Shown here: positions 153 through 13,062 of the stretch, piece by piece
Numbering within the stretch: position 1 is the stretch's first letter
Layout: each line of letters starts with the position of its first letter
IMG/VR virus record: IMGVR_UViG_3300044712_000303
Coordinates: 1 to 36,156 of that record
Source of the DNA: a virus
Reading direction: 5' to 3' (one strand)
Length of the DNA stretch: 36,156 nt
The notes under the pieces: generated by a model
The model's database searches: none
Told to the model about the DNA's origin: nothing
Seen by the model: only the letters and a program-made list of their open reading frames with translations
Translations under genes and position numbers: made by a program

Positions 153-619
153 CCACCACGACCAACGGCTTTTAAATAGCCTCCACTACCAACAACTTGA
201 AAGAACTCGGCAGTTCGAATAGCTTCTCCTTTCTTTTCACTAATGCGTGTATCGGGGAAAAGTATTTTATACTCATCACTTGTAATTCTTCGTTGTATTT
301 CGGCACTAAATTGTTCAGCAAGGGTTGCGTTATAAGATGCAAGAGCAATCTTTAAGTTAGGCTTCTTACCAAGTGCATAAGTCGGGAAACTACGAGTAGA
401 TAATTCGGACTTTCCATGTTGAGGAGGCACAAATATCATTAGCTTCTTTATCTCACCATTAAGAACCTTATCCAAGTGGTCGCATATAACCTTATGAAAC
501 CATTGCATATCATAGTCTGGCTTGATGTACTTAACAAAGTTATCAAATGACCTCCTCGAAATCTCTCTCCTCAATATCTCTATTTCGTAATTCTGAAAGT
601 CTTTGTCTAATTTCTTCAT
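1..619 (-). CDS. terL: Large terminase subunit, N-terminal part (ATPase)
   Basis: This is the ATPase motor of DNA packaging, which works at the portal. The part here encodes residues 1-206; the rest is at 35241-36004 across the circular join, giving 460 residues in all. Walker A is PPQHGKS (residues 65-71) and Walker B is LGIIDD (165-170), typical of Terminase_6-type phage terminases. I chose the ATG at 619, which reads MKKLDKDFQN and keeps a typical N-terminal stretch (DNFVKYIKPDYDMQWFH). It overlaps the small subunit gene by 77 nt. A later TTG start would remove conserved sequence. The frame runs off base 1 only because the circle was opened here. Confidence 0.95.
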   Translation of the reverse strand, partial: MKKLDKDFQNYEIEILRREISRRSFDNFVKYIKPDYDMQWFHKVICDHLDKVLNGEIKKLMIFVPPQHGKSELSTRSFPTYALGKKPNLKIALASYNATLAEQFSAEIQRRITSDEYKILFPDTRISEKKGEAIRTAEFFQVVGSGGYLKAVGRGGSLTGTAVDLGIIDDPLKDRQEAQSNIIKEQLWNWYTDVFETRLHNDSAQI

Positions 620-1025
620 CGCTTAATTGTCTTGGGTCTATAATATCTTCTCTAACTACCTTTTCCATTTGAATAGCTTGTAATGCCTTTCCATGTTGAA
701 ACTCCAACATAAATTGGGTATTCTTCATTTCACCATTCTTAATATCACCTAAGATGGCATTTGCTACTACTGCAATGAAACCAGGGGTTTGAGAATCACT
801 TGCTACTCTTTTAATCTCACTAACGGTCATTGATTGTACCAAAGCAGTAACACTCATTACATCGTGTCTACTAAGTTTTACATCAAGAATATCACCAGCT
901 TCCTCAATGACTTTCCTAATCATACTCTTTGGTCTACCATTAGGATTACGAACCTCACCTTTTTGAATAGGCTTTAAGTTCTTAATGCTATTTGGATGAG
1001 CCACTCTCTTTTTTTCTTCACTCAT
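543..1025 (-). CDS. terS: Small terminase subunit (probable)
   Basis: This 160-residue protein is encoded directly upstream of terL and overlaps it, the normal place for the DNA-recognition subunit of the packaging motor. The N-terminus has the Asn-Gly-Arg-Pro motif (RNPNGRPKS, residues 27-35) common in small terminase-like phage proteins. The remainder is charged and helical, with a Glu-rich C-terminal tail (ERDFEEVI) that may contact TerL. It is the first gene of the leftward late transcription unit, with a leader of about 265 nt if the promoter candidate at 1298-1326 is correct. The assignment rests on position and the N-terminal motif; no winged-helix fold can be seen by eye. Confidence 0.75.
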   Translation of the reverse strand: MSEEKKRVAHPNSIKNLKPIQKGEVRNPNGRPKSMIRKVIEEAGDILDVKLSRHDVMSVTALVQSMTVSEIKRVASDSQTPGFIAVVANAILGDIKNGEMKNTQFMLEFQHGKALQAIQMEKVVREDIIDPRQLSDEEIRQRLSELRNRDIEERDFEEVI

Positions 1026-1185: not shown

Positions 1186-1335
1186 TTATTTAGAACGAAT
1201 CTAAATAACACATAACACCTTAATAACCAAGACTTTATCAATGAGTTTAACCCGATTTTTGCCTTATTTGGACTAAATCTTAATAGTGTTTACACCACAA
1301 ACATAACACTTCTTATTTATAATCAATCTAAACTC
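1186..1335. repeat. Dyad repeats, left group (three sites)
   Basis: The site at 1186-1208 is a perfect inverted repeat, TTATTTAGA-acgaa-TCTAAATAA (9-bp arms, 5-bp spacer). Degenerate relatives lie at 1264-1286 (TTATTTGGA-ctaaa-TCTTAATAG) and 1313-1335 (TTATTTATA-atcaa-TCTAAACTC). The third overlaps the leftward promoter candidate, and the second lies just past its expected start point. The pattern fits operators for a dimeric protein or iterons for an initiator. Confidence 0.7.
1298..1326 (-). promoter_or_regulatory. Leftward promoter candidate for the late genes
   Basis: Read on the minus strand this gives TATGTTTG (1298-1305, matching TAnnTTTG) with TTG (1324-1326) 18 nt upstream, the Bacteroidota -33/-7 arrangement. 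It points at terS. A degenerate dyad covers its -33 side and another lies immediately downstream, so it would be controllable by the dyad-binding protein. Confidence 0.45.
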
Positions 1336-1405
1336 TTTGTTTTTCTCCATTTTTTATCACGAGTGTTTACAGCTATTACCCAAAAAGTTTTAGGTTTTTT
1401 TTGTT

Positions 1406-1465
1406 GGGTACCCCGACCAACTACCCCCACCCCCTTTTGCTCCCCACCTTTTCGGGGTGCACCCC
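1406..1465. other. C-rich block with two palindromes and G-tracts on the minus strand
   Basis: GGGTACCC (1406-1413) and GGGGTGCACCCC (1454-1465) are perfect palindromes. Between and within them the plus strand has C-runs at 1424-1428, 1430-1434, 1442-1445 and 1462-1465, so the minus strand carries four G-tracts of at least four, compatible with a G-quadruplex with one long loop. The surrounding 1390-1700 is unusually poor in G on the plus strand and repeats CACCAAAGGG (1661-1670, 1684-1693). Confidence 0.5.
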
Positions 1466-1722
1466 TCTTTGCCCACAATACACCCCAGAAACACCTAATA
1501 ACACACTTGTAACGGTGGAGTAATGTAGGTAGTAATAGGGTACACCAATTGAACAGGTGGTAGTCGGAGGGTAACCCACCACGATAAACCCTATTTAACC
1601 CCAATCAACACCAAAGACTAAACCCCTTGCAACACCAACACCAACACACACAAAGAGTAACACCAAAGGGTAACCAAAGGACACACCAAAGGGAACACAA
1701 AGTATATTAGTTTAGTAGTGTA

Positions 1723-1812
1723 TAGAATGAATCTAAATAGCTATGAATCGTATCTATTTGGAATGAATCTAATTAACAAAGTAATTAAGTTATTTAGAAT
1801 GAATCTAAATAA
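1723..1812. repeat. Dyad repeats, right group (three sites)
   Basis: The site at 1790-1812 is perfect: TTATTTAGA-atgaa-TCTAAATAA. Two imperfect copies precede it: TAGA-atgaa-TCTAAATA at 1723-1739 (short left arm) and TATTTGGA-atgaa-TCTAATTA at 1755-1775. All three have the same spacer, ATGAA. The two perfect sites of the region, 1186-1208 and 1790-1812, lie one in each group, flanking the C-rich block. Confidence 0.7.
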
Positions 1813-2177: not shown

Positions 2178-2207
2178 TTGTATTTATGTATACAATTATT
2201 ATATTTG
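2178..2207 (+). promoter_or_regulatory. Early promoter 1
   Basis: TTG (2178-2180), a 19-nt spacer and TATATTTG (2200-2207) match the Bacteroidota -33/-7 consensus exactly. The spacer carries an inverted pair TTGTA (2178-2182) / TACAA (2191-2195), a possible operator. The first gene starts 25 nt downstream. Confidence 0.8.
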
Positions 2208-2231: not shown

Positions 2232-2456
2232 ATGAAAAAGCAACAATTTAACACGGTACAAAAAGTAGTTTATATTATCTTAACGGTTTTAGCCGTTTTA
2301 ACTATTTTAAACTTCTTTTCCTTTGGTTTTCTTTTTGCCTGGGCTTTTGGCTTTATTGGTACAGGCTTACAAGTAGTAGTTTGCTTTGCCTCTTTATTGT
2401 TTGGTTCATGGGCTTGGGCTGAAAATGAAATAGCGGACGAAAAATACACCTTTTAA
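2232..2456 (+). CDS. Small membrane protein, first early gene
   Basis: The product is 74 residues from the ATG at 2232, which directly follows early promoter 1. An in-frame start further upstream would lie before the promoter and is not used. A short basic N-terminus (MKKQQFN) is followed by two strongly hydrophobic segments (about residues 10-33 and 36-55, rich in Phe, Trp and Gly) and an acidic tail (ENEIADEKYTF). It is probably a two-helix inner-membrane protein. The family is not recognised; early phage membrane peptides sometimes act in superinfection exclusion, but nothing here shows that. Confidence 0.75.
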   Translation: MKKQQFNTVQKVVYIILTVLAVLTILNFFSFGFLFAWAFGFIGTGLQVVVCFASLLFGSWAWAENEIADEKYTF

Positions 2457-2489
2457 ATAATAACTATTTTAACCTTAACAAAAAACAAA

Positions 2490-2738
2490 ATGAAAAATTC
2501 ACCTATCTACCTATTGCCTTTAATGTCTAAGTGTGACAAAGTAATGAAATTCAATCAAGAGCCTTGTATACTTTGCGAAAGACCTGTAAACATTAACGAA
2601 AATACAAAGTATGTTCATATGCTTACAACACTTGAAGCAGTAACAGAAGAAGAACACAAAAATTCGCAAGGCTTATTTCCTATTGGCAATGAATGTTGCA
2701 AGAAATTACCAAAGGAATATATTTTTAAATTCAAATAA
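2490..2738 (+). CDS. Small Cys-rich protein, possible zinc binder
   Basis: This 82-residue protein has CILC (residues 27-30) and a later Cys pair (ECC, about 69-71), plus one Cys near residue 15, a set that could hold a zinc ion. The stretch CERPVNINENTKYVHML resembles small zinc-ribbon proteins of Bacteroidota phages. The start codon is preceded by TTTTAACCTTAA at 2467-2478, a motif shared with the next genes. No function can be assigned. Confidence 0.75.
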   Translation: MKNSPIYLLPLMSKCDKVMKFNQEPCILCERPVNINENTKYVHMLTTLEAVTEEEHKNSQGLFPIGNECCKKLPKEYIFKFK

Positions 2739-2741
2739 TCT

Positions 2742-2762
2742 AAGGGGGTTAAACACCCCTTT
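2742..2762 (+). terminator. Hairpin after the Cys-rich gene
   Basis: AAGGGG (2742-2747) pairs with CCCCTT (2756-2761) across an 8-nt loop. It is followed by only three T and then an A-run, so it is probably a weak terminator or attenuator. Early promoter 2 follows, which supports a transcript boundary here. Confidence 0.45.
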
Positions 2763-2793
2763 AAAAAAAAATAAAAATATTTTTACCTACTTG

Positions 2794-2823
2794 TTGTATT
2801 GTTGTAAACAATTATTATATTTG
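2794..2823 (+). promoter_or_regulatory. Early promoter 2
   Basis: TTG (2794-2796), a 19-nt spacer and TATATTTG (2816-2823). The 16 bases ending at the -7 box (ACAATTATTATATTTG) are identical to early promoter 1, so the two promoters probably share regulation or arose by duplication. It reads the genes from 2857 on. Confidence 0.8.
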
Positions 2824-2856
2824 TAAAGAAATTAAACAACACAAAACAAAAACATT

Positions 2857-3003
2857 ATGGAAAACAATAGCTTAGAATTATCAAAAGAGTATATTTTAGA
2901 CCTTATGGAGCAAATTAAGGACGCATTAGAAAATAATGATTTTGATGAAGTGCAAAATCTTTCCGACCTGATAAATAGGGAATGTAACGAATTTATTAAC
3001 TAA
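2857..3003 (+). CDS. Hypothetical 48-residue acidic protein
   Basis: An ATG 33 nt after early promoter 2 opens a 48-codon frame, MENNSLELSKEYILDLMEQI and on. It is rich in Glu, Asp, Asn and Leu and predicted to be wholly helical, without Cys or membrane segments. The size and heptad-like Leu/Ile spacing suggest a small helical dimer, but the family is not recognised. It is followed by a GC-rich hairpin at 3011-3027. It is likely real because of the perfect promoter and the tight packing. Confidence 0.7.
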   Translation: MENNSLELSKEYILDLMEQIKDALENNDFDEVQNLSDLINRECNEFIN

Positions 3004-3010
3004 TAAAACT

Positions 3011-3030
3011 GGGGGCTAATAACCCCCTTT
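3011..3030 (+). terminator. Hairpin, possible attenuator
   Basis: GGGGG (3011-3015) and CCCCC (3023-3027) form a five-pair GC stem with a 7-nt loop, followed by TTT. The T-run is short and the next gene has no promoter of its own that I can see, so partial termination or mRNA end protection is more likely than a full stop. Confidence 0.5.
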
Positions 3031-3060
3031 AAAATCTTTCAACCTTAATCAATACCAAAA

Positions 3061-3252
3061 ATGGAAAACAAAAAGAAAATAACTGACAAAAAAGTTTCAT
3101 TCGAATTAGAAAGAATCTGGAATAAATTACTAATTCTTCAGCATTACGACAATAGGAAAAAAGTTACCGAAATAATGGGCGAAATTTTATCGCTTCGAGA
3201 AGAAATTAGAAATAGAATGTATTTAACAGAATTAGAAAAAGAAAATATTTAA
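3061..3252 (+). CDS. Hypothetical small helical protein
   Basis: The product is 63 residues, highly charged (Lys/Glu), with no Cys and regularly spaced Leu and Ile, which suggests a helical bundle or coiled coil. AACCTTAA lies at 3041-3048, 12 nt before the ATG. The stop overlaps the AACCTTAA copy of the following gene (3251-3258). No family was recognised. Confidence 0.7.
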   Translation: MENKKKITDKKVSFELERIWNKLLILQHYDNRKKVTEIMGEILSLREEIRNRMYLTELEKENI

Positions 3253-3270
3253 CCTTAACACAAACACAAA

Positions 3271-3420
3271 ATGAAAAAAGAATATTTAATTTTTGACAAA
3301 GATTTAGCCTTTATTTATCGAATTATTGCAATACTTGAAGCAACAGAAAACGAGGACATAAAAAATAAAGCCCTTAAAGAATTAAAAGAATTAATAATAA
3401 ATATAGACCTTAACCAATAA
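3271..3420 (+). CDS. Hypothetical 49-residue protein
   Basis: The product is 49 residues, MKKEYLIFDKDLAFIYRIIA and on, all-helical in appearance with many Lys and Glu in the second half. The leader, AACCTTAA then a run of A and C before ATG, is nearly the same as that of the gene at 2490. It lies 18 nt after the previous gene and 5 nt before the next, within the early transcript. The function is unknown. Confidence 0.65.
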   Translation: MKKEYLIFDKDLAFIYRIIAILEATENEDIKNKALKELKELIINIDLNQ

Positions 3421-3425
3421 ACACA

Positions 3426-3563
3426 ATGAAACACACAACAAAAAAAGAATTATTAGACTTGTTTCTGGGAGAAGAAACATACACTAAAAAAGACTTAATC
3501 CAATTAGCAAAACAATTAGGGGGGCTACTTATAATTTTAGCCCTTGTAAATTTATTATCTTAA
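3426..3563 (+). CDS. Small membrane-anchored peptide
   Basis: The product is 45 residues: a charged N-terminal half (Lys, Glu, Asp) followed by a C-terminal hydrophobic segment (GGLLIILALVNLLS, residues 32-45) that can span the membrane, giving a tail-anchored topology. ACCTTAA lies 12 nt before the ATG, partly inside the previous gene. The function is unknown. Confidence 0.65.
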   Translation: MKHTTKKELLDLFLGEETYTKKDLIQLAKQLGGLLIILALVNLLS

Positions 3564-3589
3564 TCTTTTAATGCTTAAAATATACTATT

Positions 3590-3967
3590 ATGAAAACCAA
3601 TAGCAATGAATTTAGAAGTAATGTTTACAGTTACATTTTATCTTGCATAGATAGCGAAGGATACGGAATTGAATTAAAAACTGATAAAGAAAAAATAGAC
3701 TTTGTATTTAATACTTTTAAAAGTGAATATGGTCACCAAATAAAATACTACGGTAGTAATATTCGTGAGGCTTTTGCCCAATATTTAGCGGGGCTTCCCT
3801 CTTGCATAAATATAGAATTTAGGAATTATTATATTATTGAATTAGCTAAAAATTGGGGTAGCATTCCACAAAACGCAAACGAAAATCAAGAGGATAGAAT
3901 TATTTTTAATTGGTTTAGGTTTATTGCCGATAATTTTTTAAGACTTGAAAAGAAGCTAAACAAATAA
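3590..3967 (+). CDS. Conserved hypothetical protein of Bacteroidota mobile elements
   Basis: This 125-residue soluble protein begins NSNEFRSNVYSYILSCIDSE and contains AQYLAGLPSCINIEFRNY near residues 65-82. From memory it resembles a family of uncharacterised proteins on Bacteroidota phages and conjugative elements. No catalytic motif is visible. The leader has AATGCTTAA (3570-3578), a degenerate form of AACCTTAA, 11 nt before the start. A role in host takeover or defence evasion would fit its place in the early cluster but is only inference. Confidence 0.75.
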   Translation: MKTNSNEFRSNVYSYILSCIDSEGYGIELKTDKEKIDFVFNTFKSEYGHQIKYYGSNIREAFAQYLAGLPSCINIEFRNYYIIELAKNWGSIPQNANENQEDRIIFNWFRFIADNFLRLEKKLNK

Positions 3968-3994
3968 TATTTTTTAACCTTAATTGATACTAAT

Positions 3995-4264
3995 ATGAAA
4001 AATGTTAAAGTAACTACGCAAAAATTTACACTAAAAAAAGGGTGCAAAACTGCCTACCAATTAAACGAAACAAAAACGGAATTAATAGATTTAAAAACGG
4101 TTAATTTAATTGAGGATAGTTGCAGTTGGTATAGGCGATTAGGAGGTAGCGAAACATTAACAAAAGGCTATACACCCTACGGGTTTAATTTAGTAAAACT
4201 AATAAGCAAAAGCCCTTGCAGGAAAAAGAAAACAATTAGGATTTTTGAATATTTATATAATTAA
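3995..4264 (+). CDS. Hypothetical protein
   Basis: The product is 89 residues, basic and rich in Thr and Lys, with three Cys (in KKGCKTAY, EDSCSWYRR and KSPCRKKK). The central SWYRRLGGSETLTKGYTPYG looks like a compact beta structure. A perfect AACCTTAA lies at 3976-3983, 11 nt before the ATG. No family was recognised. Confidence 0.65.
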   Translation: MKNVKVTTQKFTLKKGCKTAYQLNETKTELIDLKTVNLIEDSCSWYRRLGGSETLTKGYTPYGFNLVKLISKSPCRKKKTIRIFEYLYN

Positions 4265-4291
4265 TTTTTAACCTACAAAACACGAAAAACA

Positions 4292-4888
4292 ATGATAACG
4301 CAAGAAATTAAACTTTTTAAGTTCGAAGAATTAAGCGAAGAAGCCCAAAATTTAGCTATTCAAAATCATATTAATTCAATTGATTATATAGAATTAGGTT
4401 GGTTAATTTGGCAATTTGAGGATGAAGCGAAACAATTAGGTTTTGAAAATCCAAAATTTCAGTATTCATTAGGTAATTGTCAAGGTGACGGCCTATGCTT
4501 TTCTTTTGATTATTTCAATAGCGAAAAATTAGCCGAAATTATCAAGAAATTAACAGGTAAAAATTCAAATTGGTTTATTGATACTATCCAAAATTCAATT
4601 TATAATTTATACGGAACTGGAAACATTGGCAGATATTGTTACGCTTCCGAAACTCAAATAATTCTTAATGAAAATATATTGGAATTTCATAGTAATGTTT
4701 TTGAATTACTTAATCAAATAAGGGAATATGTTGCTGACTTGTATCTGGATTTGTGCAATAAATTTGAGCAAAGAGGGTATAAAGAAATAGAATACGAATT
4801 AAGCGAAGAAAAAGCCCGTTTTGAATTAATAGAGTTTGAAGAAGAATTTTTAAAAACAGGAGAAAGATTTCAATTTTTAATACTATGA
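4292..4888 (+). CDS. Conserved phage protein of unknown function
   Basis: This 198-residue protein starts ITQEIKLFKFEELSEEAQNL, a signature (FEELSEEAQ) of an uncharacterised group of phage proteins, some of which databases label as an antitoxin component on weak grounds. The middle has GNCQGDGLCFSFDY (residues 62-75), a Gly- and Cys-containing beta segment; the C-terminal half is acidic and helical. Its last codons overlap the next gene by 4 nt (4885-4888), implying coupled translation. It is among the larger products of the early cluster. The family is remembered rather than verified. Confidence 0.7.
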   Translation: MITQEIKLFKFEELSEEAQNLAIQNHINSIDYIELGWLIWQFEDEAKQLGFENPKFQYSLGNCQGDGLCFSFDYFNSEKLAEIIKKLTGKNSNWFIDTIQNSIYNLYGTGNIGRYCYASETQIILNENILEFHSNVFELLNQIREYVADLYLDLCNKFEQRGYKEIEYELSEEKARFELIEFEEEFLKTGERFQFLIL

Positions 4889-5115
4889 AAAGATTCAGAA
4901 TAAACAAAGAGCACGAAATTTTAATAAATTTAACTTGCAACGGAAGATTAGTATTTCAATCAATTAGGCAAAAAGGGTTTACTAATATATTACAAGCCCA
5001 AAATTTCGCAAAGGGATATTTGCCCTGGAACTACAAAGGATACGGAAGAAGAATAGAAATAGCTATTCACAATTTAGACACACAAGAAAGTAAGTATATT
5101 AGTACATTTTCATAA
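4885..5115 (+). CDS. Hypothetical small protein
   Basis: The product is 76 residues, basic, with an alternating hydrophobic pattern suggesting a small beta/alpha fold; aromatic and Gly residues cluster in YLPWNYKGYGRR (about 50-61). The ATG overlaps the stop of the preceding gene (ATGA). It is the last gene of the early cluster, 11 nt before the first of three terminator-like hairpins. The function is unknown. Confidence 0.65.
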   Translation: MKRFRINKEHEILINLTCNGRLVFQSIRQKGFTNILQAQNFAKGYLPWNYKGYGRRIEIAIHNLDTQESKYISTFS

Positions 5116-5126
5116 TTAATTAAATA

Positions 5127-5147
5127 GGGGCTCTTGCCCCTTTTTTT
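5127..5147 (+). terminator. Rho-independent terminator of the first early unit
   Basis: GGGGC (5127-5131), TCTT loop, GCCCC (5136-5140), then seven T (5141-5147): a textbook intrinsic terminator directly after the early cluster. Confidence 0.9.
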
Positions 5148-5459
5148 ATAGACTATTAATTAATTAGCCCTTTCTGGGCTTTTCTTATTTATAGCCCTTT
5201 TTAGGGCTTTATTTATTTAAAGCCTTACCAATGCATTAACCTGGGAAAACCAATTGAATACAGGTCAAAAGAAAGGCTAATTAAGGGGTTATTTATTAGG
5301 GCTTATTAATAGCATAGAATATCCTATTACCTTAAAACGTTAATAAATTGATTTTAAGCGACTTTTATAGGTCAAAACATACAAACATATTACCATACCT
5401 ATTTGAGTTGCTTAAATGCAAAATATAGTGCCTTAAATTGAATACTAAACAAAAAGAAT
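5148..5459. other. Gene-free stretch with two further hairpins
   Basis: Two more hairpins follow the terminator: AGCCC/GGGCT at 5166-5180 followed by TTTT, and AGCCCT/AGGGCT at 5193-5208 followed by TTT. The remaining 250 bases are AT-rich with no frame of note. A weak promoter-like pair, TTG (5408-5410) and TTAAATTG (5433-5440), lies before the next gene. Confidence 0.6.
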
Positions 5460-5732
5460 ATGAACACAAAGAAAGAAACGCAAAAAGACTATGAACTAAT
5501 CGGGTTTATTAGGTTTCTAAAGCCCAAACCCACACTATTTAGAACAATTATAAATAAGCTACTTTGGAGTGGAGAAAAAGTGGAAAAAGTCACCCATTGG
5601 CATTTGGGTAAAAAAGCTGATGGTCCCCAGGTTTTTTTGGAAAAAATTCTAAAATTGGTCGGGATTTTATTATGGATTATAGTTACACTCAATTTAATAA
5701 TTACTTTTTTAATTTATAAAATATTTTTCTAA
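5460..5732 (+). CDS. Small protein with C-terminal membrane anchor
   Basis: The product is 90 residues. The first 60 are soluble and basic (FLKPKPTLFRTIINKLLWSG, then VTHWHLGKKADGPQ); residues 63-88 are strongly hydrophobic (LVGILLWIIVTLNLIITFLI) and should span the membrane once. The gene stands alone between a terminator row and the regulator promoter. The family is not recognised. Confidence 0.65.
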   Translation: MNTKKETQKDYELIGFIRFLKPKPTLFRTIINKLLWSGEKVEKVTHWHLGKKADGPQVFLEKILKLVGILLWIIVTLNLIITFLIYKIFF

Positions 5733-5738
5733 TAAATG

Positions 5739-5769
5739 TTGTAGTTTTAAAATATAATAACTACCTTTG
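5739..5769 (+). promoter_or_regulatory. Promoter with built-in dyad upstream of the RHH gene
   Basis: TTG (5739-5741), a 20-nt spacer and TACCTTTG (5762-5769) form a Bacteroidota-type promoter. GTAGTT (5741-5746) and AACTAC (5759-5764) form an inverted repeat spanning exactly the spacer, so a dimeric protein bound there would block RNA polymerase. The RHH protein encoded immediately downstream is the obvious candidate for autoregulation. Confidence 0.7.
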
Positions 5770-5797
5770 TTTTAAATAAAAACACTCAAAGAAAATC

Positions 5798-6001
5798 ATG
5801 AAAGATAAAACAATAACTAACAAGAAAAAGGCAGGCAGACCACATGGTATTCCAACTTCGGTTGTTTCCGTAAGAATCCCGACAGAATTAAAGAAAGAAG
5901 CTGATTCTCGATTCGGAAACCATTGGGCTGGATTATTTAGACATTTTGTAGAAGTTTATTTAATGGAAAAAGAACCACTTTTACCAAAGAAAAAAGATTA
6001 G
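5798..6001 (+). CDS. Ribbon-helix-helix DNA-binding regulator
   Basis: The product is 67 residues. A basic N-terminal arm (TNKKKAGRPHGIPT) precedes a short beta strand, SVVSVRIP (about residues 21-28), then two helices (TELKKEADSRFG and HWAGLFRHFVEVYLME), the order of the MetJ/Arc/CopG fold. Such proteins bind inverted repeats as dimers of the paired strand. It has its own promoter with an inverted repeat, and a terminator-like hairpin follows, so it is a one-gene unit typical of an autoregulated repressor. It could also act on other phage promoters; its targets are not known. Confidence 0.75.
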   Translation: MKDKTITNKKKAGRPHGIPTSVVSVRIPTELKKEADSRFGNHWAGLFRHFVEVYLMEKEPLLPKKKD

Positions 6002-6032
6002 TTTTCAAAGTATAGGTTAAGGATGATTGCGT

Positions 6033-6067
6033 AAAGTGGTGAAATTATTTTTCATCACTTTATTTTA
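6033..6067 (+). terminator. Terminator after the RHH gene
   Basis: A 12-bp stem with one mismatch (AAAGTGGTGAAA at 6033-6044, TTTCATCACTTT at 6050-6061) and a 5-nt loop, followed by an AT-rich run (ATTTTAAAATTATTTTT). Confidence 0.7.
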
Positions 6068-6125
6068 AAATTATTTTTCTGGAAATTAAAATTTAGGCAC
6101 TTTTTTGAAAATAAATATTTTAGCT

Positions 6126-6494
6126 ATGGAAATTTGGAGAGATATTGAAGGATACGAAGGAATTTACCAAATAAGCAATATTGGTAATGTAAAAAGTTTG
6201 TCAAATAAATTTGCAAGGAAAGAAAGAATATTAAAGCAAAAACTTGATAGAAATGGCTATAAGTCAATTTCATTGTGTAAAAACTCTATTAGTAAATATT
6301 TTCTAATTCATAGATTAGTTGCTATTCATTTTATTTTTAGAGAAAATATTTCACTCCATGTAAATCATAAGGATGGAATTAAAACTAATAATAATGTAAC
6401 TAATTTAGAATGGGTAACTCGTTCTGAAAATCAAAAACATGCTTATAGGATGGGGCTATTAAAATTGCCTAACAATCGTAAGTATATATTTTAA
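6126..6494 (+). CDS. HNH endonuclease with NUMOD4 domain
   Basis: The product is 122 residues from the ATG at 6126 (MEIWRDIEGYEG); a TTG start 21 nt upstream adds nothing conserved. Residues 1-45 are a NUMOD4 DNA-binding module (WRDIEGYEGIYQISNIGNVK). An HNH domain follows: IHRLVA, then HVNHKDGIKTNNNVTNLEWV and RSENQKHA. The conserved His residues and NH.DG...NN..NLEW pattern are intact, so it should cut DNA. It is a free-standing homing-type endonuclease, a mobile gene common in phages. It follows a terminator and has no clear promoter, as expected for an inserted cassette. A role in DNA packaging is less likely, because it is far from the terminase. Confidence 0.9.
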   Translation: MEIWRDIEGYEGIYQISNIGNVKSLSNKFARKERILKQKLDRNGYKSISLCKNSISKYFLIHRLVAIHFIFRENISLHVNHKDGIKTNNNVTNLEWVTRSENQKHAYRMGLLKLPNNRKYIF

Positions 6495-6500
6495 ATATTT

Positions 6501-6602
6501 ATGAAACAATTAGACGAAATCAATCACAAAGCAGTTGCAATAGCTTATTGGTTAATTGCTATTTGCTCAATTATTATTTTACTTAAATGTTGCGACCTAT
6601 GA
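6501..6602 (+). CDS. Tiny membrane peptide
   Basis: The product is 33 residues: a polar start (MKQLDEINHK) and one hydrophobic segment (AIAYWLIAICSIIILL, about residues 13-29) with two Cys near the end. It starts 6 nt after the HNH gene and its stop (TGA) overlaps the ATG of the next gene, which is the best evidence that it is translated. The function is unknown. Confidence 0.5.
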   Translation: MKQLDEINHKAVAIAYWLIAICSIIILLKCCDL

Positions 6603-6775
6603 CACCTCAAGAAATGACAAAAATTCTTTTAGAACAATTAATTAATAACCATAATATTTCTACCAAGAAAGCCCCAGAATTAGCAATGTTTGCCGTTGAT
6701 TTATTCCTAAGCTATGAGAATATTCACGATACGAATTTTTGGTTTGAAGTAATGGATGAATTAGAAAGTTTATAA
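6599..6775 (+). CDS. Hypothetical small acidic protein
   Basis: The product is 58 residues from the ATG at 6599, which overlaps the previous stop (ATGA). An alternative ATG at 6587 would add MLRP only. It is helical, acidic, and rich in Leu, Met and Asn. No family was recognised. Confidence 0.65.
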   Translation: MTPQEMTKILLEQLINNHNISTKKAPELAMFAVDLFLSYENIHDTNFWFEVMDELESL

Positions 6776-6776
6776 T

Positions 6777-6914
6777 ATGAAAGTAAGATTCTTAGTAACT
6801 AAAAATAGGCTTGAAGTATTGCCTTGCATCACACTCCACAAGTGGAATAAGAGTGCATCAATTTATTTCTCTTGGATTGTATTTACCCTTGGCTTTGGCA
6901 TCAAATGGAGGTAA
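6777..6914 (+). CDS. Small conserved phage protein
   Basis: The product is 45 residues with a CITLHKWNKSASIYFSWIVF core and a basic end. It resembles short proteins (an LPC...SI.F.W pattern) found beside replication genes in Bacteroidota phages. It overlaps the RusA start by 10 nt and follows the previous stop by 1 nt, so it is embedded in a coupled series. The function is unknown. Confidence 0.6.
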   Translation: MKVRFLVTKNRLEVLPCITLHKWNKSASIYFSWIVFTLGFGIKWR

Positions 6915-7255
6915 TCTACGGAACAGTTCCAAGCAAGTCTAACTCTTATCGCTTTAGTGGTAAGTTTATGTATAAGACTAAGGCTTTAAGAGATTATGAA
7001 GAATCTTTTATTGAGCAATGTACTTTTTACAAGGGAGCAAAAATACAAGGCAACATCAAAATTATGTTAAAGGTTTACTATCCAAATAGAAAATCTGATT
7101 TAGATGGAGTTACCAAAGCCGTACTTGACTTATTACAAAAGGTGGAGGCATTTGATAATGACAACAAGGTTGCAGAATTATTTTTATACAAAGGATTAGA
7201 CAAGGAAAATCCGAGAATTGAATTTTTAATTGAACCAGTAGATTATATTATTTAA
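6905..7255 (+). CDS. rusA: RusA-like Holliday junction resolvase
   Basis: This protein cuts four-way DNA junctions, clearing branched replication intermediates before packaging. It is 116 residues from the ATG at 6905 (MEVIYGTVPSKSNSYRF); a longer reading from an upstream TTG would add a segment overlapping the previous gene and is unlikely. The RusA signatures are present: PNRKSDLDGVTKAVLDLL (about residues 60-77) with the acidic pair Asp65 and Asp67, and AFDNDNKVAEL (82-92) with a third metal-binding Asp, followed by the basic KGLDKENPR segment. The length agrees with E. coli RusA (about 120 residues). It acts with the SSB-like protein and the exonuclease encoded downstream. Confidence 0.92.
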   Translation: MEVIYGTVPSKSNSYRFSGKFMYKTKALRDYEESFIEQCTFYKGAKIQGNIKIMLKVYYPNRKSDLDGVTKAVLDLLQKVEAFDNDNKVAELFLYKGLDKENPRIEFLIEPVDYII

Positions 7256-7320
7256 TTAACAAAGTCCCCCGAAATCTTTGAGATGTACTGGGCTGACAGC
7301 TTGGAAAGACAAGCAAAATT

Positions 7321-7388
7321 ATACCTTAATGGGTATTAAAATGCACAAACTATGATATTTTATACCTTAAAGGGTATTAAAAATTGCA
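7321..7388. repeat. Pair of direct repeats with dyad symmetry
   Basis: ATACCTTAATGGGTATTAAAA (7321-7341, as ATACCTTAAT then GGGTATTAAAA) recurs as ATACCTTAAA then GGGTATTAAAA at 7362-7382, 41 bp later. The core ATACC-n6-GGTAT is an inverted repeat, so this looks like two adjacent binding sites. It occupies the 169-nt gap between rusA and the next transcript segment. Confidence 0.6.
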
Positions 7389-7424
7389 AAAAATACAAAT
7401 TTTAATAACTAAACCAAACACACA

Positions 7425-7541
7425 ATGAAAGCGAAATTAAAAGAAACATTTTGGCTAATTATTGAACTAATGATTGCCATAGCCTACATCCCAGTTGATT
7501 ATTTTCGAGAATTATTTAACCTAAAATCAAACACAAAATGA
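7425..7541 (+). CDS. Small membrane peptide
   Basis: The product is 38 residues: MKAKLKE, then a hydrophobic segment (FWLIIELMIAIAYIPV, about residues 9-24), then a short polar tail. The stop overlaps the next start (ATGA at 7538-7541), and an A/C-rich leader like those of other early genes precedes the ATG. The function is unknown. Confidence 0.55.
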   Translation: MKAKLKETFWLIIELMIAIAYIPVDYFRELFNLKSNTK

Positions 7542-7894
7542 CACAAAAACAAGCAAACAAATTTTTGACATATTATAGCCATTGTCAATTCCTTTATGAC
7601 TTTATTGAGAATGATTGGGAAAGGTCATCTGGTAATGTTCGAAAAGTAAAACTTCTTACTAATCAGCTTAAAAAAGAATTAGAAAAAAACATTGACCACA
7701 TATTTGCATCGAAAGAATCAGAAGGTGTAGATATGGGAAGTGTATTAGACCAATTTGTTAATGCAAGTTCAACTATGGGTCAATTATTTAATATTGGTCT
7801 AATGATGGATACAATTGAAGATAGTAAGCGATTAGAATTAAACGATAGACTTAATAATCTATTAGCTGAGTACGACATAAAACTAAATGATTAA
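7538..7894 (+). CDS. Hypothetical helical protein
   Basis: The product is 118 residues, without Cys apart from one in YSHCQFLYDF, helical throughout with several Leu/Ile-spaced stretches and an acidic C-terminus (RLNNLLAEYDIKLND). The leader contains AACCTAAAA (7518-7526), similar to the AACCTTAA motif. It lies 3 nt before the next gene, so the two are probably co-translated. The family is not recognised. Confidence 0.7.
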   Translation: MTQKQANKFLTYYSHCQFLYDFIENDWERSSGNVRKVKLLTNQLKKELEKNIDHIFASKESEGVDMGSVLDQFVNASSTMGQLFNIGLMMDTIEDSKRLELNDRLNNLLAEYDIKLND

Positions 7895-7897
7895 AAA

Positions 7898-8260
7898 ATG
7901 GTAGATAGTATAGTAGAAAATGTAAGAGAAGATTTGCACATTCGTTCTCAAATTGGAATAAAGAAGTATAGTAATACTCTTGACCGAGATGACCTGGAAG
8001 CAATAGATTGGATTCAACACGCTTATGAAGAAATGCTTGATGGGGCTTTGTACCTTAAAAGATTAAAAGGTGATGTTGAGGAGATGAATGAGCAATTCGA
8101 TGAAATTGTTAGAGATTACTTTAATCTAAAAGAAGAATTATCAGTTAAAGTTAGAATCATTGAAACGCTTAATAAGGTTATATTATCACAAGAGCAAGAG
8201 ATTAAAGAGTTGAAAAATCAAGAATATTATGACAAAAAAAGAAGGGCTTGGCATTATTAG
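7898..8260 (+). CDS. Possible MazG-like nucleotide pyrophosphohydrolase
   Basis: The product is 120 residues. The first half, RSQIGIKKYSNTLDRDD and DWIQHAYEEMLDGALYLKR (about residues 16-54), has the layout of small phage proteins with an all-alpha NTP pyrophosphohydrolase fold (RS..G..KYG..LDR, then an H..EE..D helix), with acidic residues placed as for metal binding. The second half is a Glu/Lys-rich coiled coil. If active, it would hydrolyse noncanonical or host-signal nucleotides. The match is a pattern impression only. A terminator stem begins within its last codons. Confidence 0.55.
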   Translation: MVDSIVENVREDLHIRSQIGIKKYSNTLDRDDLEAIDWIQHAYEEMLDGALYLKRLKGDVEEMNEQFDEIVRDYFNLKEELSVKVRIIETLNKVILSQEQEIKELKNQEYYDKKRRAWHY

Positions 8261-8280
8261 AGCCCTTTTTTATTTTTTTG
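8242..8280 (+). terminator. Rho-independent terminator
   Basis: AAGGGCT (8242-8248) pairs with AGCCCTT (8261-8267) across a 12-nt loop and is followed by a T-rich run. The stem starts inside the preceding gene, and a new promoter follows. Confidence 0.85.
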
Positions 8281-8310
8281 ACAAATTTTTAAATATTTTT
8301 TTATTTTTAT

Positions 8311-8341
8311 TTTGATAGTAATTAAATGTTTACTAATATTG
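8311..8341 (+). promoter_or_regulatory. Promoter of the replication/recombination unit
   Basis: TTTG (8311-8314), a 19-nt spacer and TAATATTG (8334-8341, one mismatch to TAnnTTTG). It lies between a strong terminator and the first gene of the replication unit (8361). Confidence 0.6.
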
Positions 8342-8360
8342 TACAACAAACAACAACACA

Positions 8361-8543
8361 ATGAAAATAATCCACTTAAAAAACGACATTTACCAAGTTG
8401 TAGATGAATCAATTGGTACAACCTTTCACCAAGGCACATATATTGAATGCCAATCTTTTATTCAATTATACCAGTTTAAAGACAATCCATTTTTTAAAGA
8501 ATTTTTAAATTTAATCAATCCAACACATGAAAAATCAAATTAA
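8361..8543 (+). CDS. Hypothetical small protein
   Basis: The product is 60 residues, with a beta-like start (MKIIHLKNDIYQVVDE) and an aromatic-rich helical end (FKDNPFFKEFLNLI). It is the first gene after the promoter at 8311-8341, with an A/C-rich leader. It overlaps the next gene by 17 nt. No family was recognised. Confidence 0.65.
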   Translation: MKIIHLKNDIYQVVDESIGTTFHQGTYIECQSFIQLYQFKDNPFFKEFLNLINPTHEKSN

Positions 8544-8766
8544 CTCAATCGAATCAATTTTAGCCAATTTTGGGCTTCAAGTAGATGACTTTTTTGTTGT
8601 TACTTTTTGGAAAACAAGTGGAGAAATTTCAGTACAATCTCACTTTTCAGTAGAAATGTTCAATAAGTGTCAAATGTTATTAAATAAAGATTTTATTTAT
8701 ACCTATAACAATAACATACACCAATATTTTAGTCAAGAAAATAATTTACGAATCGCATTATCTTAA
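8527..8766 (+). CDS. Hypothetical small protein
   Basis: The product is 79 residues, with mixed alpha/beta character (FFVVTFWKTSGEISVQSHFS is a likely beta hairpin). Its start lies within the end of the preceding gene, suggesting coupled translation, and it precedes the SSB-like gene by 23 nt. No family was recognised. Confidence 0.65.
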   Translation: MKNQINSIESILANFGLQVDDFFVVTFWKTSGEISVQSHFSVEMFNKCQMLLNKDFIYTYNNNIHQYFSQENNLRIALS

Positions 8767-8789
8767 TTTCAATTTAAACAAACACAATT

Positions 8790-9431
8790 ATGGCAATTAT
8801 CGCTAAATCAAACGGAGGTGGAAACATCGAACGCAAATTAGTACCAGCAGGAAACCATGTAGCAAGATGCTATGGCATGATTCAAATCGGTACAGTAGAA
8901 CAAGAGTACATGGGTGAGAAAAAGAAGCTACATAAGGTTATGGTAGACTTTGAATTACCCTTAGAAACGGCAGTATTTAAAGAAGGTGAAGAAGCTAAAC
9001 CTTTTGTAATCTCTAAGGACTTCACATTATCATTTAATGAGAAATCAACATTACGCAAGATGTTGGAATCTTGGAGAGGTAAAGCATTTACTGATGCTGA
9101 GGCAGCCAACTTTGACATTACTAAATTAGTTGGGGCTCCATGTATGCTAAACATTGTACACAAGGCATCTGCCGATGGCACAAAGACTTATGCTAACATT
9201 ACAGGTATTACTCCAATCCCAAAAGGATTGCAATGCCCTGAGCAAATCAACCCAACAAGAGTATTGGCTTATGATGCTTGGAATCAAGAATTGTTTATGA
9301 CTTTACCTGAGTGGTTAGCTGATAAGATTAGTTCAACACCTGAGTATAAGGCTAAATTTTCAATGGATGCACCGAAGCAAGAAGCATTCAAATTGGATAA
9401 AGTAGAAGAAAATGACCCATTACCATTTTAA
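8790..9431 (+). CDS. ssb: Single-stranded DNA-binding protein (phage type)
   Basis: This protein coats single-stranded DNA during phage replication and recruits partners. It is 213 residues. The N-terminal 150 residues look like an OB-type beta protein (GNHVARCYGMIQIG, then KKKLHKVMVDFELPL and LVGAPCMLNIVHK), as in phage proteins related to DUF669 and other phage SSBs. The C-terminus is acidic and ends NDPLPF, closely like the DDDIPF tip with which bacterial SSB binds its partners. The gene lies in one unit with a RecE-type exonuclease, a helicase loader and DnaB. The fold is inferred from pattern and the acidic tip; confidence in an ssDNA-binding role is good. Confidence 0.8.
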   Translation: MAIIAKSNGGGNIERKLVPAGNHVARCYGMIQIGTVEQEYMGEKKKLHKVMVDFELPLETAVFKEGEEAKPFVISKDFTLSFNEKSTLRKMLESWRGKAFTDAEAANFDITKLVGAPCMLNIVHKASADGTKTYANITGITPIPKGLQCPEQINPTRVLAYDAWNQELFMTLPEWLADKISSTPEYKAKFSMDAPKQEAFKLDKVEENDPLPF

Positions 9432-9455
9432 TTAACATTTTAAATAATAAAAACC

Positions 9456-9650
9456 ATGAAAAAATTTGTAAAGATTACTACAAGAGAAGGAGATGCTTAC
9501 ATTAAAAATTGGATTGATTCTGATACAATTTTACAATTAGTTCAAAATTCAATTACCCAGGAAGGAGTAAATGAAGGCACTATTGTTTTCCAAGATGGAA
9601 CTACTAAGGATATTATTTCATTCGCCGAAACAATAACTTATTTAAACTAA
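9456..9650 (+). CDS. Hypothetical small protein
   Basis: The product is 64 residues, probably a small beta barrel or beta-rich domain (KFVKITTREGDAYIKNWI, then GTIVFQDGTTKDIISF). It is acidic, without Cys, and encoded right after the SSB-like gene. The family is not recognised. Confidence 0.65.
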   Translation: MKKFVKITTREGDAYIKNWIDSDTILQLVQNSITQEGVNEGTIVFQDGTTKDIISFAETITYLN

Positions 9651-9668
9651 GTTTAATTACAACACACA

Positions 9669-9950
9669 ATGAAACGCAACGCAAATAACTTAGTCAAGAC
9701 AATTGAAAGAAGTGTCGGGTACAAGGCAAGATTTATCTTCAAGTTAGGAAACTTAGAAGAAGATTTAGAATCCGAAATTTTAGGTGTTACGGAATCGGGT
9801 AATATGGTTATTATTAATCACCCCGAACCGTTTCTAAACTTCTCAATCATGGAGGAGCATATACAAAAAGGCAAAAGAGAATTATTGCCTAAGCTGGTAA
9901 AACAAATGTGCATCCCAATCAACAACATTTTAGCATTTAAGGTATTATGA
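9669..9950 (+). CDS. Hypothetical protein
   Basis: The product is 93 residues. A basic first helix (NANNLVKTIERSVGYKARF) is followed by an acidic/beta middle (LEEDLESEILGVTESGNMVI) and a single Cys near the C-terminus. It overlaps the next gene by 4 nt (ATGA). No family was recognised. Confidence 0.65.
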   Translation: MKRNANNLVKTIERSVGYKARFIFKLGNLEEDLESEILGVTESGNMVIINHPEPFLNFSIMEEHIQKGKRELLPKLVKQMCIPINNILAFKVL

Positions 9951-10168
9951 GTAAATCAAAAGAAAAACTACCAATACCAAGAGATAGAAGTTATTCAGAA
10001 TTGTTTATCGAAACTGCAAATAGATTAAACAAAGATAAAAAACTTCCTTACCGAGGTAGAGAGTACACGATAGGAATCGTTCAATCTCATGTTTATGGTA
10101 AAATTAAAGACCCACAAGTTCAAGAATATTTAAACATCATAGCAAATGAATGGTATAGTGCCCAATGA
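9947..10168 (+). CDS. Hypothetical small basic protein
   Basis: The product is 73 residues, rich in Lys and Arg early (SKSKEKLPIPRDRSYSELFI), with a middle (YRGREYTIGIVQSHVYGKIK) and helical end suggestive of a small helix-turn-helix or nucleic-acid-binding protein. This is a guess from composition. It is translationally coupled to the genes on both sides. Confidence 0.6.
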   Translation: MSKSKEKLPIPRDRSYSELFIETANRLNKDKKLPYRGREYTIGIVQSHVYGKIKDPQVQEYLNIIANEWYSAQ

Positions 10169-10343
10169 CCCAAAGTGGTTAGAACAACAAGAGATTCTCT
10201 CTAATGCCCATTGGCACCAAATATTTCAACTATTAGAGTTTATGGTAAATGATATATACCCAGATGACTTTGATGAGTTGAGCCCAAGTGGAGATGTTAG
10301 AGATTATTTTAAAGCAAAATATCAAGTAACTTTTAAAAACTAA
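10146..10343 (+). CDS. Hypothetical small acidic protein
   Basis: The product is 65 residues from the ATG at 10146, overlapping the previous gene by 23 nt; a GTG at 10158 is an alternative start. It is acidic and aromatic (Trp, His, Tyr, Phe), including FMVNDIYPDDFDELSPSG (about residues 32-49). It lies 5 nt before the exonuclease gene, so it may act with it. The family is unknown. Confidence 0.6.
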   Translation: MNGIVPNDPKWLEQQEILSNAHWHQIFQLLEFMVNDIYPDDFDELSPSGDVRDYFKAKYQVTFKN

Positions 10344-10348
10344 ACCAA

Positions 10349-11089
10349 ATGAACACACCTGAAATTATTGAAACTCTTAAAGATGACAACGAATACTACA
10401 ATGGTGTAGGTCGTAACTATCTATCTAATTCAGACATTGGAATCTTGCTTAGAAACCCTAAGATGTTTGGAGTGCCAACTGAAAAGACTTTGGCAATGTT
10501 GCAAGGTAACTACTTCCATACTGCTTGCTTAGAGCCACACAAATTAAAGGACTTCCCATTAGTTGATGCCTCCACAAGAACAACAAACTTATACAAAGAT
10601 GCTTGCAAAGATAGAGGCATGGATTTTATGCTTTTGACCAAAGAGGCTGATGAGGTAGATTGGATGGTTAAGGCTTTAAGAAACAATCGTGAGTTATCTA
10701 AATTAGTTTGGGATAATGGTTGTAAATACGAAGTGCCAACTACGGGAGTAATCATGGATTTACCTTTTAAGGGTAAGGCTGATATTATCAATGGCGATAT
10801 GATTTATGACCTGAAAACCACAACATCACTTGATGACTTTAAATATTCAGCTAAGAAGTATAACTATGATTCCCAGGCTGCAATTTATCAACAATTATTT
10901 GGCAAAAAGATGGCATTTATTGTTATCGAAAAGGGGACTAATCGTTTAGGATTCTTTCAATGCTCAGATGAGTTTCTTGAGAATGGATGGACTAAAGTTG
11001 CTAAAGGGGTTGAGGTTTATAACAACTTTTTTGGAGTAAACTCTTACTTAGACATTGACCAATATTATATCAACTCTTACCTATTTTAA
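10349..11089 (+). CDS. RecE-type PD-(D/E)XK exonuclease
   Basis: The product is 246 residues, a probable 5'-3' DNA exonuclease that creates single-stranded ends for annealing recombination. The PD-(D/E)XK order is clear: GNYFHTACLEP (residues 53-63, with His57), the acidic position Asp145 in FKGKADII, YDLKTT (Asp154 and Lys156), and a later helix YDSQAAIYQQL with Gln176. This matches the exodeoxyribonuclease VIII/YqaJ-like groups. Phage exonucleases of this kind normally pair with an annealing protein; none was recognised, and the SSB-like protein or a small neighbour may serve. It lies between coupled small genes in the replication unit. Confidence 0.85.
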   Translation: MNTPEIIETLKDDNEYYNGVGRNYLSNSDIGILLRNPKMFGVPTEKTLAMLQGNYFHTACLEPHKLKDFPLVDASTRTTNLYKDACKDRGMDFMLLTKEADEVDWMVKALRNNRELSKLVWDNGCKYEVPTTGVIMDLPFKGKADIINGDMIYDLKTTTSLDDFKYSAKKYNYDSQAAIYQQLFGKKMAFIVIEKGTNRLGFFQCSDEFLENGWTKVAKGVEVYNNFFGVNSYLDIDQYYINSYLF

Positions 11090-11091
11090 TC

Positions 11092-11274
11092 ATGAAAGCA
11101 CAACACAAATTCAAAACAAACCAACTTGGTTTAACATATTCCGAATGGGGAACAAACTTAGATTATCAATTAAAACTTAATTATGTAAAACTTTATGGCA
11201 AGCAAGCAGTCACAACAAGAAAAAGCATTAAAGGACAATCGGGAGGTAATCGCCAAAATGCTACAAGAGTATGA
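11092..11274 (+). CDS. Hypothetical small basic protein
   Basis: The product is 60 residues starting 2 nt after the exonuclease stop. The first 40 residues (THYR-like pattern: KFKTNQLGLTYSEWGTNLDY, then YVKLYGKQA) look like ordinary protein; the last 20 are low-complexity and overlap, in another frame, the more convincing gene at 11195. It is probably a real gene whose 3' end is overprinted. The function is unknown. Confidence 0.5.
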   Translation: MKAQHKFKTNQLGLTYSEWGTNLDYQLKLNYVKLYGKQAVTTRKSIKGQSGGNRQNATRV

Positions 11275-11386
11275 AGAACTTAAAAAGATTCCTAATTGCA
11301 ATCCAGTTAGTGCTATTGCTTACTCTTATTTTGTCATGGAGTTCAAAATCTCAGACGATGAACACGCAAACAATCTTGGAATATGA
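11195..11386 (+). CDS. Hypothetical small protein
   Basis: The product is 63 residues. An N-terminal charged helix (QQEKALKDNREVIAKMLQEY) suggests a coiled coil; the rest is mixed. It overlaps the preceding gene by 80 nt, and its TGA overlaps the next ATG (11383-11386, ATGA), a sign of translational coupling. No family was recognised. Confidence 0.55.
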   Translation: MASKQSQQEKALKDNREVIAKMLQEYEELKKIPNCNPVSAIAYSYFVMEFKISDDEHANNLGI

Positions 11387-11472
11387 AAACGATGACTTTC
11401 AAGAAGATTTTCATGATGATTTTGATTCTACTTATGTCGTTTATGGTTGCAAATACAATACATTTAAACTAA
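11383..11472 (+). CDS. Tiny membrane or signal-like peptide
   Basis: The product is 29 residues, MKTMTFKK followed by a very hydrophobic stretch (IFMMILILLMSFMVA, residues 9-23). The start is coupled to the preceding stop by ATGA, and the stop lies 7 nt before the lipoprotein start. This could be a membrane peptide. The coding case rests on the coupling alone. Confidence 0.4.
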   Translation: MKTMTFKKIFMMILILLMSFMVANTIHLN

Positions 11473-11479
11473 ACCACAA

Positions 11480-11650
11480 ATGCAAAAACTGATATTGATA
11501 TGTACAATATTATGTACATCTTGTGAGATGCAAAAGATACCAAAGCCACAAGCTCCAAAGTATAGAGCAATTTATGGAATTACTCCGCTTGCTACTGGCT
11601 CATCATTCTATCCAATTTACATACCAATAATTAAGACAAATGGAAAATAA
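11480..11650 (+). CDS. Small lipoprotein candidate
   Basis: The product is 56 residues. The start MQKLILICTILCTSCEM is a short signal sequence with a lipobox-like LCTSC (Cys15), followed by a Pro- and Lys-rich mature part (QKIPKPQAPKYRAIYG) and a hydrophobic SSFYPIYIPII stretch. Placed in the early unit, such a surface lipoprotein could alter the host envelope, for example superinfection exclusion, but that is inference. Its 3' end overlaps the next gene by 11 nt. Confidence 0.5.
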   Translation: MQKLILICTILCTSCEMQKIPKPQAPKYRAIYGITPLATGSSFYPIYIPIIKTNGK

Positions 11651-11858
11651 ACAAACGGCAGTAGATTGGTTATTTGATAAGATAACACAGAATCAAGAAA
11701 TTAGATGGAGAGGAACAAGGCATCTTGAATTATTCAAACAAGCCAAACAAATGGAGAAAGAGCATATAATGATGGCATATAATGATGGTCGCGTAAATCA
11801 AGGATTAAAACAAAATAAGAGTTCAGAACAATATTATAACGAAACTTATGGCAATTGA
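11640..11858 (+). CDS. Small conserved phage protein
   Basis: The product is 72 residues. The layout (KQTAVDWLFDKI near the start, a central FKQAKQMEKEHIMMAYNDG and an EQYYNETYG end) is one I recall in many Bacteroidota phage genomes, always without known function. It is helical and soluble. It overlaps the genes on both sides by 11 nt each, typical of a tightly coupled unit. Confidence 0.7.
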   Translation: MENKQTAVDWLFDKITQNQEIRWRGTRHLELFKQAKQMEKEHIMMAYNDGRVNQGLKQNKSSEQYYNETYGN

Positions 11859-12081
11859 CAAACTTGGACATATTAAAAATCTACATCAAGCTATTGTAGA
11901 ATATTCAGAAATTACAAAAGGAATTTCATTGAATACAAATGATTACAATAGATTAAAAAACATTGAAGGCTTTAATAAATTTTTTATAGTTGAAAATGAC
12001 TTAAATGGTGTAGAATATTGGAATGGTAAAATAGTTACACATTCGGAGTTAGTTCCATCAAATAAATTCTATTTGATATAA
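11848..12081 (+). CDS. Hypothetical small protein
   Basis: The product is 77 residues, mixed alpha/beta (HIKNLHQAIVEYSEI, later FFIVENDLNGVEYWNGKIVT). The ATG lies inside the end of the preceding gene and the stop is 1 nt before the next start. The family is not recognised. Confidence 0.65.
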   Translation: MAIDKLGHIKNLHQAIVEYSEITKGISLNTNDYNRLKNIEGFNKFFIVENDLNGVEYWNGKIVTHSELVPSNKFYLI

Positions 12082-12082
12082 T

Positions 12083-12379
12083 ATGGGTAATAGAAAATCA
12101 AATATAGATAAAGACTATTTGTATTGCCCTAATTGCTTAAAGGATTACTCAAAGACTAACTTGGTAGATAGGTTTGACAAGAATGGTAATATTAATTGCT
12201 TGAGATTGGTTTGCGATTGTAAGAGAAAACTTAGTCTAAGACTTTTAGCTAATGGTTGGTTTAAGATTTACGATGTGACCGATGAACAAGCAAGAAAGAA
12301 CGCAAAGGATAGAGAAAAAAGAAAACAATTGAAAAATGGAACAATCGAAACAAGAAGAATACTTCCAAATGGCTATTGA
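12083..12379 (+). CDS. Zinc-ribbon-like protein
   Basis: The product is 98 residues. CPNC (residues 15-18) and a later CDC pair (about 44-46) within strongly beta sequence suggest a zinc ribbon; the C-terminal third is very basic (EQARKNAKDREKRKQLKNG), likely to bind nucleic acid. Such small zinc proteins are frequent next to phage replication genes. The function is unknown. It overlaps the next gene by 44 nt. Confidence 0.65.
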   Translation: MGNRKSNIDKDYLYCPNCLKDYSKTNLVDRFDKNGNINCLRLVCDCKRKLSLRLLANGWFKIYDVTDEQARKNAKDREKRKQLKNGTIETRRILPNGY

Positions 12380-13047: not shown

Positions 13048-13062
13048 TAAAACAACAACACT

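Follow-up and report, generated by a model that had tools for sequence, protein, structure and literature searches.

Fur-box-like dyads at the early/late boundary of a Bacteroidota phage as candidate operators for the host iron regulator

Which protein recognizes the family of 23-bp dyads that is clustered between the divergent operons of an uncultivated phage, and does this locus function as a replication origin or as a genetic switch? The window analyzed here is the entire 36,156-nucleotide IMG/VR record IMGVR_UViG_3300044712_000303, a single record of a phage of Bacteroidota. A 152-bp repeat at its ends (one mismatch) and a terminase gene split across them indicate that the genome is circular as assembled. 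A first-pass annotation, made from the sequence alone, considered both an origin and an early/late switch, and proposed one dimeric binding protein, with a ribbon-helix-helix (RHH) protein, the helicase loader and a host factor as the candidates.

Dyads and promoters in the early/late gap

The dyads lie within a 1.2-kb gap that separates a leftward late operon, from the terminase onward, from a rightward early operon. The first of the leftward late genes is terminase-small-subunit-like (543-1025); terL and the portal gene follow, and the late genes continue round to position 14567; the early genes, from 2232 to 14421, include those for RusA, an exonuclease, the helicase loader and DnaB. The match of the helicase loader (12517-13047) to PHROG 270, replication initiation protein, is restricted to its C-terminal part, so that this protein may lack a DNA-binding domain. 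An Rfam search yields no match, and neither a nucleotide search nor a search with the TerS protein finds a relative among cultured phages. The features relevant for the discussion below are as follows (no strand is assigned to the dyads; fractions are matching arm positions).

543..1025, minus strand: terminase small-subunit-like gene with weak similarity to DUF5681; first of the late genes, followed by terL and portal
1186..1208: Fur-box-like dyad 1, 18/18; approximately +86 to +108 of the late promoter
1264..1286: Fur-box-like dyad 2, 15/18; starts 11 bp past the late -7 element
1298..1326, minus strand: late promoter P_L, flavobacterial type; -33 TTG at 1326-1324, -7 TATGTTTG at 1305-1298
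1313..1335: Fur-box-like dyad 3, 14/18; overlaps the late-promoter -33 TTG in the window's own clade
1718..1740: Fur-box-like dyad 4, 14/18; opens a triple array with 36-bp spacing
1754..1776: Fur-box-like dyad 5, 15/18
1790..1812: Fur-box-like dyad 6, 18/18; core ATTTAGAATGAATCTAAAT, one mismatch to ATTTAGAATNATTCTAAAT
2178..2207, plus strand: early promoter P_R, TTG-N19-TATATTTG
2232..2456, plus strand: first rightward (early) ORF in the ORF list, no function assigned
5535..5557: Fur-box-like dyad 7, 16/18; inside ORF 5460-5732, 240 bp before the RHH-like gene
5798..6001, plus strand: RHH-like small protein, present in 7/7 complete genomes compared; phage-encoded rival binder

The six dyads of the gap, two with perfect arms (1186-1208 and 1790-1812) and four degenerate, were recognized already in the first-pass annotation, where one genuine site was given as 1723-1739 instead of 1718-1740. 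A scan of the whole window with up to three mismatches identifies five dyad sites, four in the gap and one in a coding region, compared to 0.25 expected from 100 dinucleotide-preserving shuffles, none of which reached five sites; the two further dyads in the gap are weaker than this set. The coding copy (5535-5557, two mismatches) had escaped the first-pass annotation, which noticed none in coding regions. It is the only further copy in the genome, so the density of the dyad outside the gap is low, whereas equal density elsewhere had been named as an observation that would speak against the proposed role. The ORF that contains it encodes a small membrane-protein-like product and lies upstream of the RHH-like gene.

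With the small-terminase-like protein as query, 41 relatives were found (61-99% identity), and the geometry counts given below refer to the 31 distinct relatives with enough upstream sequence. All relatives with enough upstream sequence carry dyads, which rules out the absence from related phages that the earlier annotation had likewise listed against itself. The arms are 94-96% conserved across relatives, in contrast to 65-77% for the spacer and 64-69% for the flanks, so that the 5-bp spacer does not form the conserved block that had been suggested. The 11 relatives that were scanned whole contain 4-7 dyads each, compared to 0-1 for a reversed control; most complete relatives have a coding-region copy near the place of 5535-5557, and in four of the six fetched relatives (G003, G004, G006 and G010) a dyad is located close to the RHH-like gene. 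A distant relative, L388 (7 shared ORFs, best 28-38% identity), has two groups of boxes, with four boxes perfect. The six 23-bp dyads are thereby confirmed as real, non-random and conserved.

The positions of the dyads relative to the promoters are compatible with regulation. The flavobacterial promoter element TA[TA]GTTTG is present as the late-strand -7 in 31/31 distinct relatives, and the -33 TTG is confined to the window's clade. Again in 31/31, a distance of 11-13 bp separates the late -7 from the start of dyad 2 downstream, and dyad 1 lies a further 73-78 bp beyond dyad 2 in all of them; these fixed positions at the late promoter support the reading of the region as an early/late switch. 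In two Pedobacter genomes (L225 and L237), the same box is located 13 bp past the -7 of TonB receptor genes, comparable to P_L, and a box just past the start of P_L, as at these host genes, suits repression. At the opposite end of the gap, many relatives have an extra dyad that starts 33-34 or 54-56 bp before the P_R -33, the two groups being offset by about two helical turns. The window, L133 and L135 are without a dyad next to P_R and carry the triple array further upstream instead; the array is similar in L134 and L135 (35-36 bp spacing) and looser in L133. Judging by its position, the P_R-proximal box lies where activators often bind, which at most hints at activation, given that many host iron genes have several upstream box positions.

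The gap contains other features as well. Between 1410 and 1700 lies a non-coding block, C-rich on the plus strand, that evolves fast, with conservation confined to its left part. Phased repeats of approximately 11 bp (TAGTATACTAA / TAGTGTAATAA) form arrays in the late leader (1118-1176) and upstream of the early promoter (2030-2093); their copy number differs between relatives, and they possibly represent a second operator family. Palindromes of the form TGTWWACA, found at 1287, 1364, 2187 and 2803, adjacent to the late -7 and, at two early promoters, between the -33 and -7 elements, are notable for their placement and not enriched in the genome as a whole (6 compared to 5.7 by chance). The possibility that the dyads form an RNA hairpin was considered and rejected because the degenerate copies disrupt the pairing and because host iron genes, too, are preceded by these sites.

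The Fur box and its occurrence in bacterial chromosomes

The dyad core ATTTAGAATGAATCTAAAT is the flavobacterial box of the ferric uptake regulator Fur that has been reported for Riemerella (ATTTAGAATTATTCTAAAT). In Riemerella anatipestifer, this box is given in the Results of PMC5609570 along with Fur gel shifts of four promoters, and a 19-bp palindrome, ATTTAGA-N5-TCTAAAT, is described upstream of TonB and haem-uptake genes; the box was predicted beforehand and then tested only as part of whole promoters, and the abstract of that paper prints the E. coli box, whereas its table and discussion agree with the Results. A further study (PMC7976709) shows Fur binding that depends on metal, along with derepression in a fur mutant. 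Six sites in the window fall within three mismatches of ATTTAGAATNATTCTAAAT (18 fixed positions), compared to 0.2 expected, the consensus being that of R. anatipestifer. The palindrome is the same as in the phage dyads; in R. anatipestifer, however, the sites are chromosomal, with one site per promoter, whereas the phage carries 6-7 sites per genome at the early/late boundary.

When GTDB is scanned with one genome per species, the exact dyad gives at least 120 matches. Among the 120 matches listed, it is nearly restricted to Bacteroidota: the record titles name taxa of this phylum for at least 108, whereas 4 belong to neighbouring phyla, 2 to unnamed records and 6 to other groups. Of the 120, 110 are intergenic. 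The families encoded directly downstream, among the matches listed, are TonB receptors (11), glutamyl-tRNA reductase HemA (9), cytochrome c (9), ABC binding proteins that we read as Fe-type (6), DUF4856 (6), IscA/ErpA (5) and SufB (3); genes for FeoA and IscS, both identified by our reading of the sequences, are also preceded by an exact dyad among these matches. The TonB receptors in question are siderophore receptors. Thus, on chromosomes the dyad is found ahead of genes for iron, haem and Fe-S functions more often than expected by chance, which favors the host factor among the first-pass candidates.

Of 100 Flavobacteriaceae genomes drawn evenly, 12 contain the exact dyad (one of them is the ascertained centre) and none contains the reversed control; most of these dyads are located at hemA. 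A gene of the Fur family is found in 60/60 Flavobacteriaceae genomes and in 0/12 phage records; a host of this kind would thus supply the protein. No convincing dyad precedes the fur genes themselves, and therefore there is no autoregulation to back the link to Fur. For the host boxes, helical phasing to their promoters is suggestive only (p between ~0.0006 and 0.06 when periods of 9.5-10.75 bp are tried). At seven Bacteroidales loci (L238, L262, L265, L271, L286, L306 and L341), a dyad lies between an mlaD-like gene and dnaA; a link to DnaA, which these loci suggested, was rejected because, in several of them, the dyad is the core of a longer, terminator-like palindrome that ends the mlaD-like gene.

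The proposal that the dyads are iterons or initiator recognition sites can be weighed at this point. The AT-rich flanks, the 1.2-kb non-coding gap and the minimum of the detrended cumulative GC skew at 1687, within the 1-2 kb interval where the first-pass annotation had proposed to look for an extremum, would all be compatible with an origin; however, the skew reverses where the coding strand switches and is, hence, uninformative, and nothing else gives the origin positive support. There is no DnaA box within 4 kb (the nearest TTWTNCACA is at 6282) and no initiator adjacent to the repeats, the loader and DnaB genes being 11 kb away, and the dyads show promoter geometry and match host iron operators. 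An origin is therefore a very improbable explanation of the dyads, although Fur sites could lie beside one.

The dyad in other virus groups and the identity of the binder

Clusters of the same box are present in about a dozen other virus groups that have no early genes in common with this phage. For pairs of boxes 27-57 bp apart, IMG/VR contains 19 viral loci, compared to none for the reversed control; two of these, L375 and L379, have a G+C content of ~49% and may not belong to Bacteroidota viruses. No regulator gene common to the dyad-bearing viruses was found, and the recurrence of the clusters in viruses without a common early gene points to a host protein as the binder. The cultured flavobacterial phages 11b, phi18:1 and RAP44 have no boxes above background, so that the boxes are a trait of some phage groups. 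Nine records of Prevotella Lak-B megaphages contain one 22/23 match to the dyad each (e.g., L422, 2501-2523).

These observations bear directly on the RHH and loader proteins as binders, a suggestion that finds no support in the recurrence of the dyad in virus groups sharing no early gene with this phage. A phage-encoded regulator, e.g., the RHH-like protein, with a merely convergent resemblance of its sites to the Fur box, could be invoked given that the gene is retained in every complete genome compared, that a dyad lies near it, and that its structural model consists of two helices after a possible strand (pLDDT 69); no Fur, cI or helix-turn-helix repressor family is found among the phage genes scanned, which leaves the RHH-like protein as a candidate. 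The same dyad, however, marks iron genes in bacterial chromosomes, and the unrelated viruses that bear it have no homologues of the early genes of this phage. Furthermore, the dyad spans 23 bp and its half-sites are separated by one helical turn, a layout that fits a helix-turn-helix dimer more readily than a single RHH dimer. We regard a phage regulator as improbable. Binding by the terminase small subunit, with the dyads as cos or pac sites, is suggested by their position immediately upstream of the terS-like gene, as in lambda, where the terminase site cosB precedes the small-subunit gene; the boxes, however, are found at distances of up to 1.3 kb and, in relatives, as far as P_R, and they also occur on host chromosomes and in viruses that have different terminases, so that this explanation is scarcely credible.

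If the binder is host Fur, the boxes might still serve mainly as decoys: by titrating it, they would induce the iron uptake of the host in infected cells while hardly affecting the promoters of the phage. The viral clusters, which consist of 2-6 boxes, nearly all intergenic and often without a recognizable promoter within 300 bp, are compatible with this possibility. However, the fixed spacing to the late -7 in all distinct relatives and to P_R in many of them points to promoter control, and 6-7 boxes are few before the genome is replicated; a predominant decoy function is accordingly unlikely.

A predicted Fur-dependent switch and its known counterparts

Taken together, the motif, the promoters, the fixed spacing and the host regulon, all of which can be read from the genomes, suggest that the dyads are probably operators for the host Fur, a regulator that the phage itself does not encode, and that Fur would block the late promoter and leave the boxes later. 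The identity of the dyad with the published flavobacterial box also fits the single dimeric protein that was envisaged at the outset; Fur-superfamily paralogues (PerR/Zur-like) could act at similar sites and could be the binder. We infer Fur binding, its effect and the response to iron as follows. Upon phage entry, dimeric, Fe2+-loaded host Fur would bind the dyads; Fur bound to dyads 1-3 would block the promoter of the terminase and structural genes and leave the early promoter open, or perhaps help P_R; and the late genes would start once Fur leaves the boxes. Release might be triggered by a fall in iron or by replication, which would multiply the boxes (6-7 per genome) and dilute a limited Fur pool. 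The latter variant can be developed, tentatively, into a copy-number timer, whereby replication titrates the limited host Fur and turns the late operon on, host iron uptake being derepressed as a side effect, a device that unrelated Bacteroidota viruses would have arrived at repeatedly; we consider this version possible and rather doubtful.

The available sequences suggest that a gene switch is coupled to the host iron regulator in this phage and in several unrelated phages. If so, phage development would be linked to iron status in waters and guts. The dyad data also yield a strong Fur-box consensus for Bacteroidota, the iron regulon of which is poorly charted.

No report of Fur sites as phage switches was found in the open-access literature, and the closest counterparts each share part of the proposed arrangement. 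The Irr/ICE box of alphaproteobacteria, TTTAGAA-N3-TTCTAAA, is the site of a haem-responsive member of the Fur superfamily and has the same half-site spacing as the phage dyad, albeit in another phylum. On Shiga-toxin prophages, Fur controls stx1, so that a host Fur operator resides on a phage genome as it would here; that site, however, serves a cargo gene, whereas the sites described here are at the late and early promoters of the phage itself. CTXphi, GIL01 and coliphage 186 employ host LexA as a repressor, with sites in the phage control region, i.e., a host stress regulator in the role proposed here for Fur. The signal relayed by LexA is DNA damage, and the outcome is the induction of prophages, whereas the sensor here would respond to iron, and no integrase is found among the phage genes scanned. 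For LexA, phages are already known to make use of a host regulator; the arrangement proposed here would extend this to the iron sensor Fur, at an early/late switch conserved through a phage family and recurring in about a dozen virus groups.
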